From Natrinema hispanicum (GTDB lineage: Archaea; Halobacteriota; Halobacteria; Halobacteriales; Natrialbaceae), in NCBI RefSeq assembly GCF_900111485.1, contig NZ_FOIC01000001.1, positions 186,001 to 250,000 on the forward strand: a DNA stretch of 64,000 nt, given 5' to 3'. Below are positions 49,773 through 60,557 of the stretch, piece by piece. The notes under the pieces are model-generated. The model was not told where the DNA came from. It saw nothing but the letters and a program-made list of their open reading frames with translations, and searched no databases. Both the position numbers and the translations under genes were made by a program. Position 1 is the first letter of the stretch. Each line of letters begins with the position of its first letter.

Positions 49773-51746
49773 TTAGCGGCCTGCCGGAGAGGGCGTACAC
49801 ATCGTCACGTCTCCGTTCGTGTAGACCGTGGCCTGATCCGGCCGACAGAGCTGCGTCGGAGAGAGGTCTTCGATCCGCGCAGTTCCGTCCGTATCCGTGA
49901 CGTACGTCGCCTCGGTCGATTGCGCCGACCGATAGACCGTGTAGTCGTGGGCTGCGACGCCGCCTTCGGGAACCGTTGCGGTTGTCGTCGATGGATACGC
50001 GCCGGTCCGACTGAACAGCGTCTGATAGGGGTGATCGGTGTGGAGTTGCTGATCGGGGCGGATCTCCTCGCCGTCGGGCGAGCCGGTCAGTTCGGCGATC
50101 GACTCGGCCGCGGCGAGTTCCGTCTCGTCGTACGCGAGGCGCTCGTGCTGGTCCGAGAAGACCGGATTTTCGACGTTGCTCTCGACGGCGAGGACCATCG
50201 CGCCCGGATACGCGAGTGCGCCGATCAGTAACACGGCGACGACGAGCGAGGGCCTCAGGCTTCCACGTAGCGTCCGCAGCCCGATCGCACCGAGGACGGC
50301 CATCGGCGCATAGAGGAACGCGAACCAGCGCGTCGGGATGAACGTCCGGATGCCGAACATCGGGAACCCGAGGATGAACACCAGCATGAACGCCGCCGCC
50401 AGCAGGAGCGTGAACACCGACTGTTCGGCGCGTCGCCTATGAACGACGTACAGACAGCCGGCGAACGTGCTACCAAGCAGGAGCAGGAAGCCGAGGTTGT
50501 CCACGTAAGGAACGACCTGCTCGAGCAGCGTCGGCGCGGCTTCGGCCCCGGCTTTGGCCGTTTCGGACTCGCTCGCGGTGTTGAGGAAGCCAGCGCTGTC
50601 TTCGAGCGTCTGCGTGAAGTAGCTCAGAACCGTCCCCAAAAACGAGTCCTGATTGTACGGCGTCAGCGACCAGACGAAGATCGTCAGTCCGAGGTTGAAG
50701 ACGACGAGGCCGACGAGGTTGACCGGCTTTTTCGTCCGGAAGACGCTCGTGTCGAGTCGCGTGAGCCCGAACGGGCCGATCACGAACACGAGTTGCGCGA
50801 TAAACGCCGCGAGTAACAACACGAGCATGATGAACGTCGACACCTGGTGTGTGAGAATGACGGCGATGCTCAGCAACAGGAGCAGCGCGAAGTCCCGGAT
50901 CGTGTACTCGATCCGCATCACGCGGATCAGCGCATACAACATTGCGAGGAAGAAGACCAGCCCCAGACTCGTGGGGATGATATGGATTCCCCACCGCGCG
51001 ACGTGGTTGCCGAACGCGTAGAGCGCCGTCGCTAGCACCGCCCACCGCGTCGAGACGAGCAGGTTCGTCGTCGCGTAGACGAGCAGGACTGATATGGGCA
51101 TCACGAGGCCGACAGAGAGGTACAACGCGGCGCGAATCGGGACGTCGTACAGCAACGACGAGGCGGCCACCAGCAGGTGGTAGAACGGCGAGCCGTAGTG
51201 TTTGTTATCGGAGATCGCGCTCAGCGACTGCTCCGTGAGAATCGCGTCGACGAGTTCGCGGTGGGTCCAGATGTCGATCCCGATGTAGCCCGGCGTGGTA
51301 TAGAGCGCCGCGAATCGGAAGACGAACGCAAAGCAGACGATCTGGAGCAACAGCAGGCCGGGATGGAGATCGCGATCGTTCACGAAGACGATCTGGCCGA
51401 TAACGAGCGTGCCGACGACACTCGCCAGCCCGAAGAACGCGAGCGTTCGCTCCCCCTGTAGGACCGGTAACACGACGAGGCCCGACAGCCCGACGAAGAC
51501 GACGCTCGGAAGCGCCATCGACACTGACGAGGGAAGCGTCGGAACTGCCCGCGCGTCGTCGCGCTGATACAGGGAGACGATATACAGCACACACGCGGTG
51601 CCAAGGATGACCGGCACGGTCTTGATGTAGATCTGTGACGTGAGAAATCGCAGCGGGAACAACGCCAGCGCGAGCAGGAGCCCACCGATCGCCGCGACGG
51701 TGTCGAGTCGCAGCGGTCGCAGTTCCGACAGTGAGCTATACTTCAT
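49773..51746 (-). CDS. Large multispanning membrane protein, GT-C glycosyltransferase-like
   Basis: This 657-residue protein starts MKYSSLSELRPLR and has at least 12 membrane helices. A loop after the early helices, GYIGIDIWTHRELVDAI, is followed by ALYLSVGLVMPISVLLVYA and an acidic C-terminal domain (PGAMVLAVESNVEN...). The layout suits a GT-C enzyme of the family that uses dolichyl-phosphate sugars on the outer face. No unequivocal GT-C motif was read, so the assignment is partly by context. The start overlaps the GT4 stop by 11 bp. An in-frame start 33 bp upstream is less likely. Confidence 0.72.
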   Translation of the reverse strand: MKYSSLSELRPLRLDTVAAIGGLLLALALFPLRFLTSQIYIKTVPVILGTACVLYIVSLYQRDDARAVPTLPSSVSMALPSVVFVGLSGLVVLPVLQGERTLAFFGLASVVGTLVIGQIVFVNDRDLHPGLLLLQIVCFAFVFRFAALYTTPGYIGIDIWTHRELVDAILTEQSLSAISDNKHYGSPFYHLLVAASSLLYDVPIRAALYLSVGLVMPISVLLVYATTNLLVSTRWAVLATALYAFGNHVARWGIHIIPTSLGLVFFLAMLYALIRVMRIEYTIRDFALLLLLSIAVILTHQVSTFIMLVLLLAAFIAQLVFVIGPFGLTRLDTSVFRTKKPVNLVGLVVFNLGLTIFVWSLTPYNQDSFLGTVLSYFTQTLEDSAGFLNTASESETAKAGAEAAPTLLEQVVPYVDNLGFLLLLGSTFAGCLYVVHRRRAEQSVFTLLLAAAFMLVFILGFPMFGIRTFIPTRWFAFLYAPMAVLGAIGLRTLRGSLRPSLVVAVLLIGALAYPGAMVLAVESNVENPVFSDQHERLAYDETELAAAESIAELTGSPDGEEIRPDQQLHTDHPYQTLFSRTGAYPSTTTATVPEGGVAAHDYTVYRSAQSTEATYVTDTDGTARIEDLSPTQLCRPDQATVYTNGDVTMCTPSPAGR

Positions 51747-52698
51747 GACTGACCCCCGTCGGATAGCTCGTCCCGCCATCCCTGTCTAACACTTGTCGAT
51801 ACAGCCCGTGGAGACGCTCACCGAGTGTGTCGACGGAGAGCCCGTCGATCGACTCGCGGCCGTCGGATCGGCCGCCGTCTTCGATGGCTCGCTCTAAGCC
51901 GCCGATGAGCGCCCCGTCGTTGTCACTGACGGTACAGTTCGTCAGGCCGCGGATCGTCTCGCGGACGAAGCCGACGTCGGTCGAAACGACCGGCAGGTTA
52001 CACGCGGCGGCTTCTTTGACGACCATCGGGCCGCTCTCGCGTTTCGACGTGACCAGGAGGACGTCGCTCGCGTTCATGTAGTAGGGTATCTCGTCGTGAT
52101 CGACGCCGGAGACCGTTCGCAGCTCGAGGTCGACGTCGGCTTGCTGGACGAGGCGGCGAGCGCGCGGATAGTCCTTCACCGAACGGGTCTGGTCGTATGG
52201 GAACAGTGCGATCGGTCGGTCGGTTTCCCATCCAAGGTACTCGCGCGCGCCTGCCCGCGACAGCGGCCGAAAGAGATCGGTGTCGACGCCGAACGGGATC
52301 AGTTCGTGCTCGGTCTCGAGGTCGCGGGACATGACCCGGCTCGGCACGACCGCGGCGTCCGCCCGGCGAGCACCGTATCGGCTGCACGATCGCAGCCACG
52401 TCCGGTCGCTCATGAGGTCCGTCCCCCACAGGGTGAGCACCACTGGCCGGGTCGGCTGGGCGAGCGCGAACGGGGCGACGAGTCCGTAGTTCGCGTGCAC
52501 CAGATCGTACGACGACGACCGAACCATCGAAAGGACGTTCGAGTAGTATCGTGCGTAATCCGCCGGTGTCCGGCCCGAATCGCCGCTGTGTTCGCCGGGG
52601 ACTTCGAGGACCGTACAGTCGATACCGCGCGCTTCGAGAGCCGAAACTTGCTGGTCGAAAAACGGTCGTGATGACGTGACCAGTTGGAGTACGTTCAT
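51736..52698 (-). CDS. GT4 glycosyltransferase
   Basis: This 320-residue GT-B-fold enzyme starts MNVLQLVTSSRPFFDQQVSAL. The C-terminal half has the GT4 nucleotide-sugar region: IPFGVDTDLFRPLSR, YYMNASDVLLVTSKRESGPMVVKEAAACNLPVVSTDVGFVRE with the ESGPMVVKEA motif. It overlaps the DUF354 gene by 4 bp and the GT-C-like gene by 11 bp. A scrambled copy of its C-terminal coding part lies at 58950-59170. Confidence 0.93.
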   Translation of the reverse strand: MNVLQLVTSSRPFFDQQVSALEARGIDCTVLEVPGEHSGDSGRTPADYARYYSNVLSMVRSSSYDLVHANYGLVAPFALAQPTRPVVLTLWGTDLMSDRTWLRSCSRYGARRADAAVVPSRVMSRDLETEHELIPFGVDTDLFRPLSRAGAREYLGWETDRPIALFPYDQTRSVKDYPRARRLVQQADVDLELRTVSGVDHDEIPYYMNASDVLLVTSKRESGPMVVKEAAACNLPVVSTDVGFVRETIRGLTNCTVSDNDGALIGGLERAIEDGGRSDGRESIDGLSVDTLGERLHGLYRQVLDRDGGTSYPTGVSHEV

Positions 52699-53885: not shown

Positions 53886-55286
53886 TCACAACCTCCGGTA
53901 GACGAATCCCGCATCGACGGCCGCGCCTTCGTCGACCGTGCCGGTCACGTCGATCAGCGCGGGCTCGTCCGCGAGTTGGCTCGCCACCGCCGGGAGATCG
54001 AGGTGCTCGAACTCCGCGTGCGGCGTCGCGAGCAAAATCGCGTCGAACCCCTCAAACGAGAGTCGGTCCTGAACGTCGATTCCGAAGGCTTCGCGGGCCG
54101 CGTCGTCGTCAGCGAACGGATCGAATCCTTCGATGTCGATGTCGTACTCCCGAAGCTCGTCGATGACGTTGTTGATTTTCGAACTGCGGATGTCGCCGAC
54201 GCCCGGTTTGTACGCCAGTCCCAACACCAGCACGCGGCTCTCGCGGAGCGTCTTGTGACACTGGTTGAGGGCCTTGATCGTCAGCTCGGCGACGTGGTCG
54301 GGAACCGATTCGTTGACCTGCCGGCCCGTCTGCATGAGCTCCGGCTCGAATCCCTCCTTGGCCGATCGGTACGCAAAGAAGTACGGATCGACCGGGATGC
54401 AGTGGCCGCCGACCAGTCCCGGCCGGTAGTCGTGGAAGTTCCACTTCGTGCCCGCAGCCTCGAGGACGGCCTGCCCGTCGACGTCCATCTGATCGAGCGC
54501 CATCGAGAGCTCGTTGACGAACGCGATGTTGAGATCTCGCTGGGCGTTCTCGACGACTTTGCAGGCTTCGGCGACCTCGATCGACGGGGCACGATGGACG
54601 CCCGCGTCGACGACCGACTCGTACAGCGTCGCCACGTCCTCGAGTACGGTCTCGTTTTGGGCGCTGACGACTTTGACGACGTCCGCGAGCCCGTGTTCCT
54701 CGTCGCCCGGTGTTGCGCGCTCCGGGGAGTACCCGACGAAGAAGTCCTCGGTTGCGGTCAGTCCGGACGCGTCCTCGAGCGCCGGCACGAGCACGTCGCG
54801 TGTCGTGCCTGGATAGACCGTCGACTCGAGGACGACAGTCGTTCCAGAGGTCATCTTCGACCCGACCGTGGTCGCCGCGCTTTCGACGTAGCCGAGGTCC
54901 GGCCGCTCGTCGTCGTCGATCGGTGTCGGCACGGCGATGATGACATAGTCGGCCTCGGTGATCGCAGTCGCGTCGGTCGTATAAGAGATGTCGCCGTCCT
55001 GAATCACGTCGTCGGTGAGATCACCGGTCGTATCGATCCCCTCTTGGAGTCGGTCGACCGTCACGTCGTCGACGTCGTATCCGATGACGCGGTAGTCCGA
55101 CTGCGCGAACCCGACCGCAAGCGGCAGCCCGACATAGCCCAGTCCGACGACGCAGATCGTCGCTTCGCGCGTCGATCGCTCCGTCTCGTGCTCGAGGCTG
55201 GTCTCTTCACCGCTCGATTCGGCCTCGTACTGGCCGCTCGCTCGCTCGTCCGATTGCGTCTCCGTATCGCTGATTATCGTGGTCAT
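53886..55286 (-). CDS. Nucleotide-sugar dehydrogenase (UDP-HexNAc 6-dehydrogenase type)
   Basis: This NAD-dependent enzyme oxidises C6 of a UDP-sugar to a uronic acid. In its 466 residues, CVVGLGYVGLPLAVGFA (45-61) is the NAD motif, STVYPGTTRDVL follows, ENAQRDLNIAFVNE lies near 246-259, and catalytic Cys296 lies in GGHCIPVDPYF. The sequence resembles WecC/TviB/WbpA enzymes, favouring UDP-ManNAc or UDP-GlcNAc as substrate. A 42-residue Ser/Glu-rich extension precedes the NAD motif. It heads the DUF354-GT4-GT-C operon, with TTTATCC on its strand near 55417-55425 as a candidate TATA box. Confidence 0.92.
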   Translation of the reverse strand: MTTIISDTETQSDERASGQYEAESSGEETSLEHETERSTREATICVVGLGYVGLPLAVGFAQSDYRVIGYDVDDVTVDRLQEGIDTTGDLTDDVIQDGDISYTTDATAITEADYVIIAVPTPIDDDERPDLGYVESAATTVGSKMTSGTTVVLESTVYPGTTRDVLVPALEDASGLTATEDFFVGYSPERATPGDEEHGLADVVKVVSAQNETVLEDVATLYESVVDAGVHRAPSIEVAEACKVVENAQRDLNIAFVNELSMALDQMDVDGQAVLEAAGTKWNFHDYRPGLVGGHCIPVDPYFFAYRSAKEGFEPELMQTGRQVNESVPDHVAELTIKALNQCHKTLRESRVLVLGLAYKPGVGDIRSSKINNVIDELREYDIDIEGFDPFADDDAAREAFGIDVQDRLSFEGFDAILLATPHAEFEHLDLPAVASQLADEPALIDVTGTVDEGAAVDAGFVYRRL

Positions 55287-56876: not shown

Positions 56877-56877
56877 A
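56665..56877 (+). CDS. Possible leader peptide upstream of glmS
   Basis: This 70-codon frame starts MAAVVRGGSDARSD, or internally MTRNSTALTAAV at 56737. Its stop shares one nucleotide with the glmS ATG (TGATG), and it runs across the glmS ribosome binding site, which would couple their translation. Codon use is weaker than in true genes here, and no homologue is recognised. It is a candidate only. Confidence 0.25.
   Translation: MAAVVRGGSDARSDSRARTGSTIPMTRNSTALTAAVSSRLDTSVTAVDCPAAHDAADAAWSPAVQPEVIG
56862..56870 (+). promoter_or_regulatory. Strong Shine-Dalgarno site of glmS
   Basis: GGAGGTGAT matches the 16S rRNA 3' end in all nine bases and lies six bases before the ATG. Most genes in this window lack such a site, so glmS is translated by the classical route, and probably lies within a longer transcript. 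Confidence 0.75.
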
Positions 56878-58685
56878 TGTGCGGGATTATCGCGCGAATC
56901 GGTCACGGGAACGCAGCAGAGACGCTCCTCTCGGGGCTCGAGAACCTCGAATACCGGGGCTACGACTCGGCAGGCATCGCCGTCCAGAACGGCTCCGGCG
57001 TCAAGGTCCACAAATGTTCGGGCGAGGTCTCCGACCTCAAATCGACGTTGAGTACACAGCCACACGGAAATATGGGAATCGGCCATACCCGCTGGAGTAC
57101 CCACGGGCCCCCGACTGACGAGAACGCCCATCCGCATACGGACACGGCCGGTGACGTCGCGGTGGTTCACAACGGCGTCATCGACAACTACGATGAACTC
57201 CGAGCGGAGCTTCAGGAGAAGGGCCACGAGTTCGACAGCGACACTGACACCGAAGTCATTCCCCACCTCATCGACGAGTATCGGGACGCGACCGGCGACA
57301 CCGAGCAGGCCGTTCGCCGGGCTGTCGACACGCTCGAAGGGAGCTACGCGATCGCCGCGATCGTCGACGGCGAAGAGGCGGTCTACGCCGCACGGAAAGG
57401 ATCGCCGCTCGTCCTCGGGCTCGATGAGGAAGAGTGGTTCCTCGCCAGCGACGTCCCGGCGTTCCTCGATCACACCGACGAGGTGATCTACCTCGAGGAT
57501 GGCGATCTGGTGGTCCTCGAGCCCGACTCCTACCAGATCACCGATCTCGACGGGAATCCGATCGAGCGGCCGGTCGACACCGTCGATTGGGATCCCGAAG
57601 ATGCGGGCAAAGGCGAGTACGACCATTACATGTTAAAGGAGATCCACAACCAGCCGACCTCCCTCGCCAATACGATCGAAGGCCGGGTCGAGGATGGCGA
57701 TGTCGCGTTCGAGGCCCTGCCACCGGGCTCGTTCGACGGGATCGAGTCGGTCCAGTTCGTTGCCTGCGGGACATCGTATCACGCGGCGATGTACGGCAGC
57801 CAGTTGGTTCGCGAGGCCGGGATTCGGGCCGACGTCCTCCGAGCCAGCGAGTACGAGTCGACGACCGGACCGGTCGACGAAACCACGCTCACCATCGCGG
57901 TCACACAAAGCGGCGAGACAGCCGATACCCTCGATGCGCTCCGAACCGCGGCCGATCGCGGCGCGCGAACCCTCGCCGTCACCAACGTCGTCGGTTCGAC
58001 GGCCGCCCGCGAAGCCGACGACGCGGTCTACATCCGCGCCGGCCCGGAGGTCGGCGTCGCCGCGACGAAGACCTACTCCTCGCAGGCGGTCACGCTCGCG
58101 CTCCTCTCCCAGCGCATCGCCGGTGACGTTCCTGACGCGACCCCCGCCGACGACCGAGCGGCGATGCTCGAGGCGCTCGCAGATCTGCCAGAGCACGTCG
58201 AGACCGTCCTCGAGTCGACCCACGCTGAGACGCTTGCACAGGACACCCTCGACAGCGAGTCGTTCTTCTTCATCGGCAGCGGGCTCGGTCGTTCCGTCGC
58301 GCTCGAGGGTGCGCTAAAATTCAAGGAGATTACCTACGAGCACGCGGAAGGGTTCGCCGCCGGCGAACTCAAACACGGGCCGCTGGCGCTCGTGACCGAG
58401 GAGACGCCGCTGTTTGCGGTCTACACGAGCGGTGACGACGAGAAGACGAAGACGAACGCGATCGAAGCCAAGTCCCGCGGTGCGCCGATCGTCGCCGTCG
58501 GACCCACCGACCATCCCCTCGTCGACGTCGCCGACGCACACCTGTCGGTTCCCGAGACCCACCCCGTCTGGGCTGGGCTGCTTGCGAACGTCCAGTTGCA
58601 GTTGCTGTCCTACCACGCTGCGAAACAGCTCGAGCGGCCGATCGACAAACCACGCAATCTCGCGAAAAGCGTGACGGTCGAATGA
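56877..58685 (+). CDS. glmS: Glutamine-fructose-6-phosphate aminotransferase
   Basis: This enzyme makes glucosamine-6-phosphate, the entry to UDP-GlcNAc. It has 602 residues. The glutaminase domain starts MCGIIARIG with the nucleophile Cys2, and has YRGYDSAGIAV and HTRWSTHG. Two SIS isomerase domains follow (VACGTSYHAAM, VTQSGETADTLDALR, and later FIGSGLGRSVALEGALKFKEITYEHAEGFAAGELKHGP). It ends DKPRNLAKSVTVE, the usual C-terminal tail. The Shine-Dalgarno at 56862 sets the start. It provides the amino sugar for the neighbouring glycan genes. Confidence 0.97.
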   Translation: MCGIIARIGHGNAAETLLSGLENLEYRGYDSAGIAVQNGSGVKVHKCSGEVSDLKSTLSTQPHGNMGIGHTRWSTHGPPTDENAHPHTDTAGDVAVVHNGVIDNYDELRAELQEKGHEFDSDTDTEVIPHLIDEYRDATGDTEQAVRRAVDTLEGSYAIAAIVDGEEAVYAARKGSPLVLGLDEEEWFLASDVPAFLDHTDEVIYLEDGDLVVLEPDSYQITDLDGNPIERPVDTVDWDPEDAGKGEYDHYMLKEIHNQPTSLANTIEGRVEDGDVAFEALPPGSFDGIESVQFVACGTSYHAAMYGSQLVREAGIRADVLRASEYESTTGPVDETTLTIAVTQSGETADTLDALRTAADRGARTLAVTNVVGSTAAREADDAVYIRAGPEVGVAATKTYSSQAVTLALLSQRIAGDVPDATPADDRAAMLEALADLPEHVETVLESTHAETLAQDTLDSESFFFIGSGLGRSVALEGALKFKEITYEHAEGFAAGELKHGPLALVTEETPLFAVYTSGDDEKTKTNAIEAKSRGAPIVAVGPTDHPLVDVADAHLSVPETHPVWAGLLANVQLQLLSYHAAKQLERPIDKPRNLAKSVTVE

Positions 58686-58707
58686 TCGGCTCGTCGCACA
58701 GCTAACG

Positions 58708-58713
58708 TTTTTT
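58708..58713 (+). terminator. T-run after glmS
   Basis: TTTTTT lies 23 bp after the glmS stop, an appropriate archaeal termination signal. Confidence 0.4.
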
Positions 58714-58949
58714 CGCGGTCAGTTCGACGCCACCGGTTCACGGCTCGAAGCCGCGCGTCGTGTCCCCTCACACTGTCAGTAGCTGCAGCGGTGCAGACAA
58801 GCGACGAGTGTTGAAACGCCGTTGCAGTGAGTTACACTGCTCGAGCGACAGAGCAGGATCACCATGACCGATTGCCTACTCTCGAACGACGATCGGACAG
58901 CCTCCTCTCTCGGTGCCCCCGGACAGCTCGGCCCGTTGCCTGACCCAGC

Positions 58950-59170
58950 ACTCGGCGAGGCAGTTCGTGGTGAGACCGAGTCGACAGCGGGTTCGGTTAT
59001 CGACTCGTGGCTGTTGGATCGACACTCATCTCCGATAGCCCGCTCGAGGCCACCGAGGAGGTCCATCGGTGTCGCTGACAGTGCAGTTCGTCGGGCTATG
59101 ACACGGTTCGCTGACGCCACCGCATGTACTCTGCCGGTCGTCTCGACCGACGTTGGGGTCGTCCCCAACT
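58950..59170. pseudogene. Decayed GT4 glycosyltransferase C-terminal remnant with an inverted segment
   Basis: On the minus strand 59095 down to about 58951 reads like the GT4 C-terminus (LGGLERAIGDECRSNSHESI against IGGLERAIEDGGRSDGRESI, with NCTVSD before it). On the plus strand 59110-59170 reads ACTLPVVSTDVG against ACNLPVVSTDVG of the same GT4. These parts are adjacent in the intact gene but lie in opposite orientation here, so about 60 bp have been inverted. No long reading frame is kept, so it is a dead duplicate. Confidence 0.7.
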
Positions 59171-59543
59171 GGTGGAAGAACCAGCGTCCAGCGTTCGGTC
59201 TTCGCTATCGGTCGGGGCTGATACGGTCTACTGTAACGAATTCCCGGCGCATCCGCAGGACGGGTCGCGGATACGCTGGAACTGACTGACAGTAGTCCGT
59301 ATGAATCAACAGCGGTCCAGTGTCTCGAGACCGATAGCGAGGGTCGTTGTTCGAGACATGGCTCATCTGGCGTACTCGAGCGGTCGATCATCGCCGTCTC
59401 GAACGGAGATGCGTACAGCCCGCCGTCTCGGAGAGCGGTATTCGGATGTGGTCGAGACCGTACTGCCGCCGACAAAACGAGAACCACAACCACGTCCTCA
59501 CACGAACGGCCGCCACTACACCACGGCCGGCGGTGCGCCGTGG

Positions 59544-60557
59544 TTAGCCGTCTTTCGACTCGAGTGTCAGCGTGATCGATTCGTCCCCGCCATCGATCGT
59601 GACAGGTCGCGGCTTCGGCTCCGCGAACGTGTACCCGTCCGCGTTTGCGGTGACCGCGTACTCGCCGTCCTCGAGTTCGAACGTCGCCTCACCATCGTCG
59701 TTAACTTCTTTCGTTTCCTTCTCGTTCGAGCCAAAGAGGAGGGCGTCCTCTGCGACCTCGACGGTCGCATTCTCGACCGCAGTGCCGTTCTCGTCCTTGA
59801 CGGTCACTGCAAGCGTGTGCGTCCCATCGCTATCGTCGGTGCCGTCGCCGGCTTGGGTCTGTTGCTCGAGCGTTAGCGTGATCGTCTGGTCTGCACCATC
59901 GACCTGAACGGATTTCTCCGTGGTTTTGTAGCCGTCCGCGTCCGCAGTAACTGCGTACTCGCCGTCCTCGAGCACGAATTCGGTCTCTCCGTTCTCGTCA
60001 ACCGATTTCGAGACGTTCGAGGCTGATCCGGGATCGACGGTAACGGTGGCGTTGTCGATCACATCGCCGTTCTGTGATTCGACGACTGCCGTCAGTACGT
60101 GCGATTTGTCGGTCGTCGTCTCGTTGCTGCCGTCGGAGTTCGTGCTGTCGGTTCCGTCCGCTTGGGTGTCGGTACTATCGGAACTGTCCGCCTGAGTGTC
60201 CGTGCTGTCGGTACCATCCGTCTGGGTGTCCGTACTGTCAGTTCCGTCCGTTTGTGTGTCCGTACTGTCGGTACTATCCGTCTCTTCCGTTTCGTTGGCT
60301 GTCCCGCCGGTCCCATCGGTCGTATCGCCATCGCCTACCGAGTTGCTGTCGGCCGTGTCGCCACCGTCGTCGGCCGGCTGTTGGACATCGTCGAGCCTGT
60401 CGCTGACCGAGCCGACGGCGCTGCTGACGGACGCACCGCTCGCGGCGAGTACCAGGCCAGCCAGCAGGAACACGATGCCACAGACGGTAAGCAGGATCTG
60501 GACGCTACGCTGAATCGATCGGGTCTCCGTTCGGCTGTGTTGGGCATTGCGGCGCAT
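59544..60557 (-). CDS. Membrane-anchored protein with acidic DST-repeat stalk and two carboxypeptidase-regulatory-like domains
   Basis: This 337-residue protein starts MRRNAQHSRTETRSIQRSVQ. It has one helix (ILLTVCGIVFLLAGLVLAASG), which may anchor it. A Thr/Asp/Ser-rich stalk follows, with repeats such as DGTDSTDTQT (about 95-145), then two beta-sandwich domains of the CarboxypepD_reg/PEGA type (VLTAVVESQNGDVIDNATVTVDPGS... and TLAVTVKDENGTAVENATVEVAEDA...), each ending EDGEYAVTA(D/N)ADGY. It is probably on the cell surface. A 12-bp palindrome ATTATCGATAAT overlaps its start codon. Confidence 0.82.
   Translation of the reverse strand: MRRNAQHSRTETRSIQRSVQILLTVCGIVFLLAGLVLAASGASVSSAVGSVSDRLDDVQQPADDGGDTADSNSVGDGDTTDGTGGTANETEETDSTDSTDTQTDGTDSTDTQTDGTDSTDTQADSSDSTDTQADGTDSTNSDGSNETTTDKSHVLTAVVESQNGDVIDNATVTVDPGSASNVSKSVDENGETEFVLEDGEYAVTADADGYKTTEKSVQVDGADQTITLTLEQQTQAGDGTDDSDGTHTLAVTVKDENGTAVENATVEVAEDALLFGSNEKETKEVNDDGEATFELEDGEYAVTANADGYTFAEPKPRPVTIDGGDESITLTLESKDG
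60160..60290. repeat. Coding tandem repeats of the DST stalk
   Basis: About four 30-bp units, each encoding the ten residues DGTDSTDTQT or close variants, lie in tandem within the surface protein gene. The units vary mainly at third bases. They are protein-level repeats, not a CRISPR array. Confidence 0.75.

Follow-up and report, generated by a model that had tools for sequence, protein, structure and literature searches.

Introduction

In the set of microinversions described between human and chimpanzee, all definite cases are flanked by inverted repeats, and in half of the set the arms of these repeats are 4–8 nt long (PMC8755829). MITEs, for their part, have been described in Haloquadratum (PMC3119063). 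Here, we analyzed a locus that adjoins a glycan (sugar-coat) gene cluster of a Natrinema-group haloarchaeon, within a contiguous stretch of 64,000 nucleotides (hereafter, the window). The locus holds a broken copy of the end of a GT4 glycosyltransferase gene, part of which is inverted. It makes a clean archaeal microinversion case, for which the parent gene and its inverted repeats can be compared along with an uninverted copy. The genome of the window is referred to as G000; among its relatives, G021 is Haloterrigena sp. H1 and G007 is Natrinema hispanicum DSM 18328.

A broken second copy of the GT4 gene end lies downstream of glmS

The intact GT4 gene occupies positions 51736–52698 of the window on the minus strand (963 nt). 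Its product matches the Pfam families PF00534 (E 6e-14), PF13692, PF13579, and PF13439, with Glycos_transf_1 and Glyco_trans_4_4 among the domains, and 20 further genomes of the genus have best matches with an open frame, at 61–94% protein identity. An initial annotation of the window, made from the letters alone, had proposed a broken duplicate of this gene at 58950–59170, some 6.3 kb away, with the part reading LPVVSTDVG on the plus strand and the rest on the minus strand. Comparing 58688–59543 with the GT4 region on both strands by blastn bore this out, distance and coordinates included. Positions 58999–59096 matched 51848–51947 on the same strand (75% identity across 100 bp, E 1e-14), while 59113–59164 matched 52014–51963 in reverse orientation (83% identity across 52 bp, E 7e-11). 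The next GT4 match had an E-value of 0.4, and everything else was noise.

A nucleotide profile built from 21 GT4 genes of the genus and run with nhmmer extended the same-strand piece to 58920 (GT4 nt 732–939, E 5e-20) and recovered the inverted piece as GT4 nt 685–738 (E 5e-9). We thus delimit a 3′-end part in the parental orientation at 58920–59112 (minus strand, GT4 nt ~737–939) and an inverted block at 59113–59164 (plus strand, GT4 nt ~685–736). The two pieces are neighboring parts of GT4 and jointly cover nt ~685–939 of the 963, with many indels. Searching the whole genome with 58900–59200 returned only the stretch itself and the GT4 gene. Weak profile matches at 55014–55173, and at similar places in relatives, were discarded as composition noise, as they fall inside a UDP-sugar dehydrogenase gene.

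The C-terminal part had been described as readable on the minus strand. Instead, this part was found to be split over two frames, so that with the inverted block the pieces lie in different frames and on different strands. Protein readings of the remnant gave no significant Pfam family match, and a search of Rfam gave none either. Indels between the remnants of G000 and G021 disrupt any frame. Judged from these features, the remnant is a non-coding pseudogene fragment of the duplicated GT4 gene, frameshifted and most likely without function now.

The upstream end of the remnant is inverted at a quasi-palindrome of the parent gene

In the intact gene, the segment equivalent to the inverted block (51963–52014, minus strand) is a quasi-palindrome. 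It has GAAGCCG at its start and CGGCTTC near its end (GT4 nt 685–691 and 726–732 of a block spanning 685–~736), and these 7-bp arms enclose an inner stem, CGGTCG-TTT-CGACCG. This pair is the sole perfect 7-bp inverted repeat among the 15504 spans of 44–60 bp in GT4. Folded as DNA, the segment forms a hairpin of −14.7 kcal/mol (z −3.25), which 1 of 200 shuffled sequences equaled. By folding energy alone, it ranks 31st of 912 GT4 windows, and since 30 other 52-nt windows of the gene fold as well or better, we regard the inverted repeats as better evidence than the energy.

We then simulated inversions in a template made of the GT4 body and the G007 flank. The best segments were 58, 53, and 52 bp for G000, G021, and G024, respectively, and alignment scores rose from 107 to 175, from 110 to 174, and from 73 to 133, that is, a gain of 60–68 units for an inversion of 52–58 bp. 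The block is therefore about 52 bp long rather than the 60 bp first proposed. The GT4 body is required for this estimate: when only G007 or G008 served as the template, the inferred length was not stable (29 or 90 bp), presumably owing to the decay of these copies themselves. Inverted repeats lie at the breakpoints or within a few nucleotides of them, with short arms. Given that the block falls on the one perfect 7-bp inverted repeat that GT4 has in this size range, flipping between such short repeats, by template switch or break repair, is the likely mechanism. With an invertible phase-variable switch in mind, we noted that each genome shows one orientation (one genome per species) and that the arms measure 4–7 bp.

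The remnant is shared with relatives, inverted in some and uninverted in others

To place the remnant in relatives, we used as an anchor the glmS-like gene (glucosamine-6-phosphate synthase; SIS and GATase_6 domains) that borders it on the left at 56877–58685 on the plus strand, and whose syntenic best match is present in 22 genomes. G021 aligned to 58690–59543 at 87% along the full length, inversion included, with 91% identity between the two remnants. G024 showed the same inverted arrangement in a more advanced state of decay. In G007 and G008, GT4 nt 678–868 were found on the same side of glmS, at the orthologous place, as one contiguous and uninverted piece of ~75% identity. An intervening insertion sets this piece ~2.4 kb further from glmS, and the right-hand flank of G000 aligns to G007 and G008 directly beyond the block. 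In the other 17 of the 22 genomes with a syntenic glmS, no remnant was found within 1.5 kb downstream. Among 31 named 20-kb loci of other haloarchaea, it was present only in those of H1 and N. hispanicum, the others giving weak matches. The scrap is an old inherited scar, common to at least three species.

The insertion beside the G007 remnant (2.3 kb; locus L050, 8990–11270) carries, from open reading frames read by eye, a putative secreted alpha/beta-hydrolase-like lipoprotein gene, an HTH gene, and a small membrane protein gene; the gap in G008 is similar in size. The glmS locus of G008 (L051, G008:C17:48000-62000) is without GT4, the DUF354 gene, the UDP-sugar dehydrogenase, and the HTH gene, yet has kept the remnant. 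Its glmS match begins at residue 30–31 and is reported with one in-frame stop. To the right of the remnant in the window, the minus-strand gene at 59544–60557 encodes a protein with a pair of carboxypeptidase-regulatory-like/PEGA domains and a linker of T/D/S/Q-rich repeats, which differs from species to species.

The remnants form one clade whose branching conflicts with the species tree

With all remnants set to one orientation, the five formed a single clade inside the GT4 genes of G000, G007, G021, and G024 (support 79), which derives them from the local GT4 and not from another glycosyltransferase. Within this clade, G007 and G008 branched first (88), and G024, G021, and G000 grouped together (97); the tree rests on about 185 columns. 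Identity was 65–72% between remnant groups and 67–78% between remnants and the intact gene. The groups thus differ from one another about as much as, or more than, they differ from the parent, the pattern that copies of a conserved gene should show when they decay without constraint. Since the five remnants group together and the uninverted copies branch first, the data support one partial duplication and, after it, a single in-place inversion of some 52 bp in the allele lineage of G000, G021, and G024. This is the first of the two origins that the initial annotation had envisaged.

The rpoB tree, in contrast, placed G000 with G007 and G008 (0.995) and left G021 and G024 outside, and the GT4 tree joined G000 with G007 (0.994). 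Strict vertical inheritance with a single inversion is at odds with these trees, so that either exchange between lineages or a reversal is needed. Along the G008 sequence, identity to G000 was 97% at the glmS end, about 73% over the gap, and 97% again at 60400, that is, a mosaic. The gap downstream of glmS was thus probably exchanged between species or lineages. The earlier reading of the scrap as a mark of recombination at this right-hand edge of the glycan locus holds in a weak sense, that of the mosaic to the right of glmS; the scrap itself is an old inherited scar.

A MITE-like palindrome stands beside the remnant

An imperfect palindrome of ~87 bp, TSA-TACGGTCTGCTGT...ACAGTAGTCCGTA-TSA, lies at 59218–59304, 54 bp from the remnant and not part of it. 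It has at least 41 matches in the genome of the window, with many more elsewhere in the genus (see also loci L097–L126), and a search of Rfam with it gave no match. Counting by eye, 22 of 23 aligned copies carried the same 3-bp direct repeat, TCA or TGA, at both ends. This repeat resembles a target-site duplication within CTSAG, so that the palindrome looks like a MITE-like element, one that we presume may be mobilized by an IS5-type transposase. At the remnant site, it was present in G000 and G021 and was not found in G024, G007, or G008. We considered it as a cause of the inversion and rejected it, since G024 has the inversion; the palindrome probably arrived later.

Discussion

We propose the following history, which we hold with high confidence as a whole. 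An ancestor of a five-species Natrinema/Haloterrigena group would have acquired, in the gap that follows glmS, a same-orientation copy of ~260 bp of the local GT4 3′ end, which then degenerated as a pseudogene fragment. Along one line of alleles, today found in G000, G021, and G024, the upstream ~52 bp of the scrap would later have flipped in situ between short inverted repeats, with replication template switching or microhomology-driven break repair at a hairpin-prone site as the probable process; we infer this enzymology from its product. The other allelic lineage, that of G007 and G008, would have stayed uninverted and gained the 2.3-kb insertion. As to how the fragment was copied, its position would suit a large tandem duplication with later deletion, since its 3′ end points to glmS, in the orientation of the parent. 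However, the flanks, searched for the GT4 5′ part and neighboring genes as a trace of such a duplication, yielded nothing above noise.

Several other explanations were weighed against this history. Haloarchaeal GC-rich sequence yields many weak matches, so that the resemblance might be owed to chance or composition, or point to another glycosyltransferase family. We give practically no credence to this, which the E-values of the two pieces, against 0.4 for the next match, already refute; the remnant is also nearer to the GT4 genes of the subclade (73–78%) than to those of more distant species of the genus (55–63%). That the stretch is a functional element, either a small protein or an RNA acting on GT4, is suggested by a 141-aa open reading frame spanning it (58864–59289). 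Yet indels break this frame in G021, neither Pfam nor Rfam recognizes the stretch, its divergence between species exceeds that of neighboring coding genes, and G008, at whose glmS locus no GT4 gene was detected, retains it, all of which makes a function highly improbable. Adjoining pieces of opposite orientation could also stem from two independent insertions of GT4 fragments, the second origin put forward at the outset. However, the pieces are adjacent in GT4 (nt 685–736 and 737 onwards) with almost no loss between them, and no direct repeats were seen at the junctions on inspection by eye. Together with the single remnant clade, the contiguous copies in G007 and G008 largely refute two insertions, and we regard them as very unlikely.

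The conflict with the species tree gives some room to a block that flips repeatedly, either inverted in the common ancestor and reverted in that of G007 and G008, or inverted independently in several species. The rpoB tree nests G007 and G008 inside the inverted group, and the block is bounded by inverted repeats and prone to form a hairpin. A recent reversal should, however, have left an identity near the 91% seen between G000 and G021, whereas the G007 and G008 remnants branch first and are just 65–69% identical to the others, too divergent to make a reversal in them the likelier event. Moreover, the 97% identical DNA on both flanks of the G008 stretch is as expected of allele exchange. We therefore judge repeated flipping improbable. 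The same low standing falls to the broader idea that this hairpin-prone part of GT4 flips recurrently, the same ~52 bp having been inverted more than once, or inverted and reverted, within the species group; we are quite doubtful of it.

Collectively, one partial duplication with a later in-place inversion accounts for the remnant, which is ordinary genome decay of a duplicated gene end together with a well-resolved microinversion. The remnant leaves the view of the glycan locus unchanged. It hints at an exchange, between Natrinema species, of the DNA that follows glmS. As a truncated, frameshifted second copy near its parent and in the same orientation, it resembles any partly duplicated gene that has decayed into a pseudogene fragment, its internal inversion being the sole difference. 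With the human/chimpanzee microinversions (PMC8755829), it shares a short in-place inversion and inverted repeats of 3 nt or more whose edges lie at the breakpoints. Unlike those, which span 17–33 bp, it measures about 52 bp and sits in a pseudogene fragment of an archaeon, and it is old, the inverted segment having no exact match any more.
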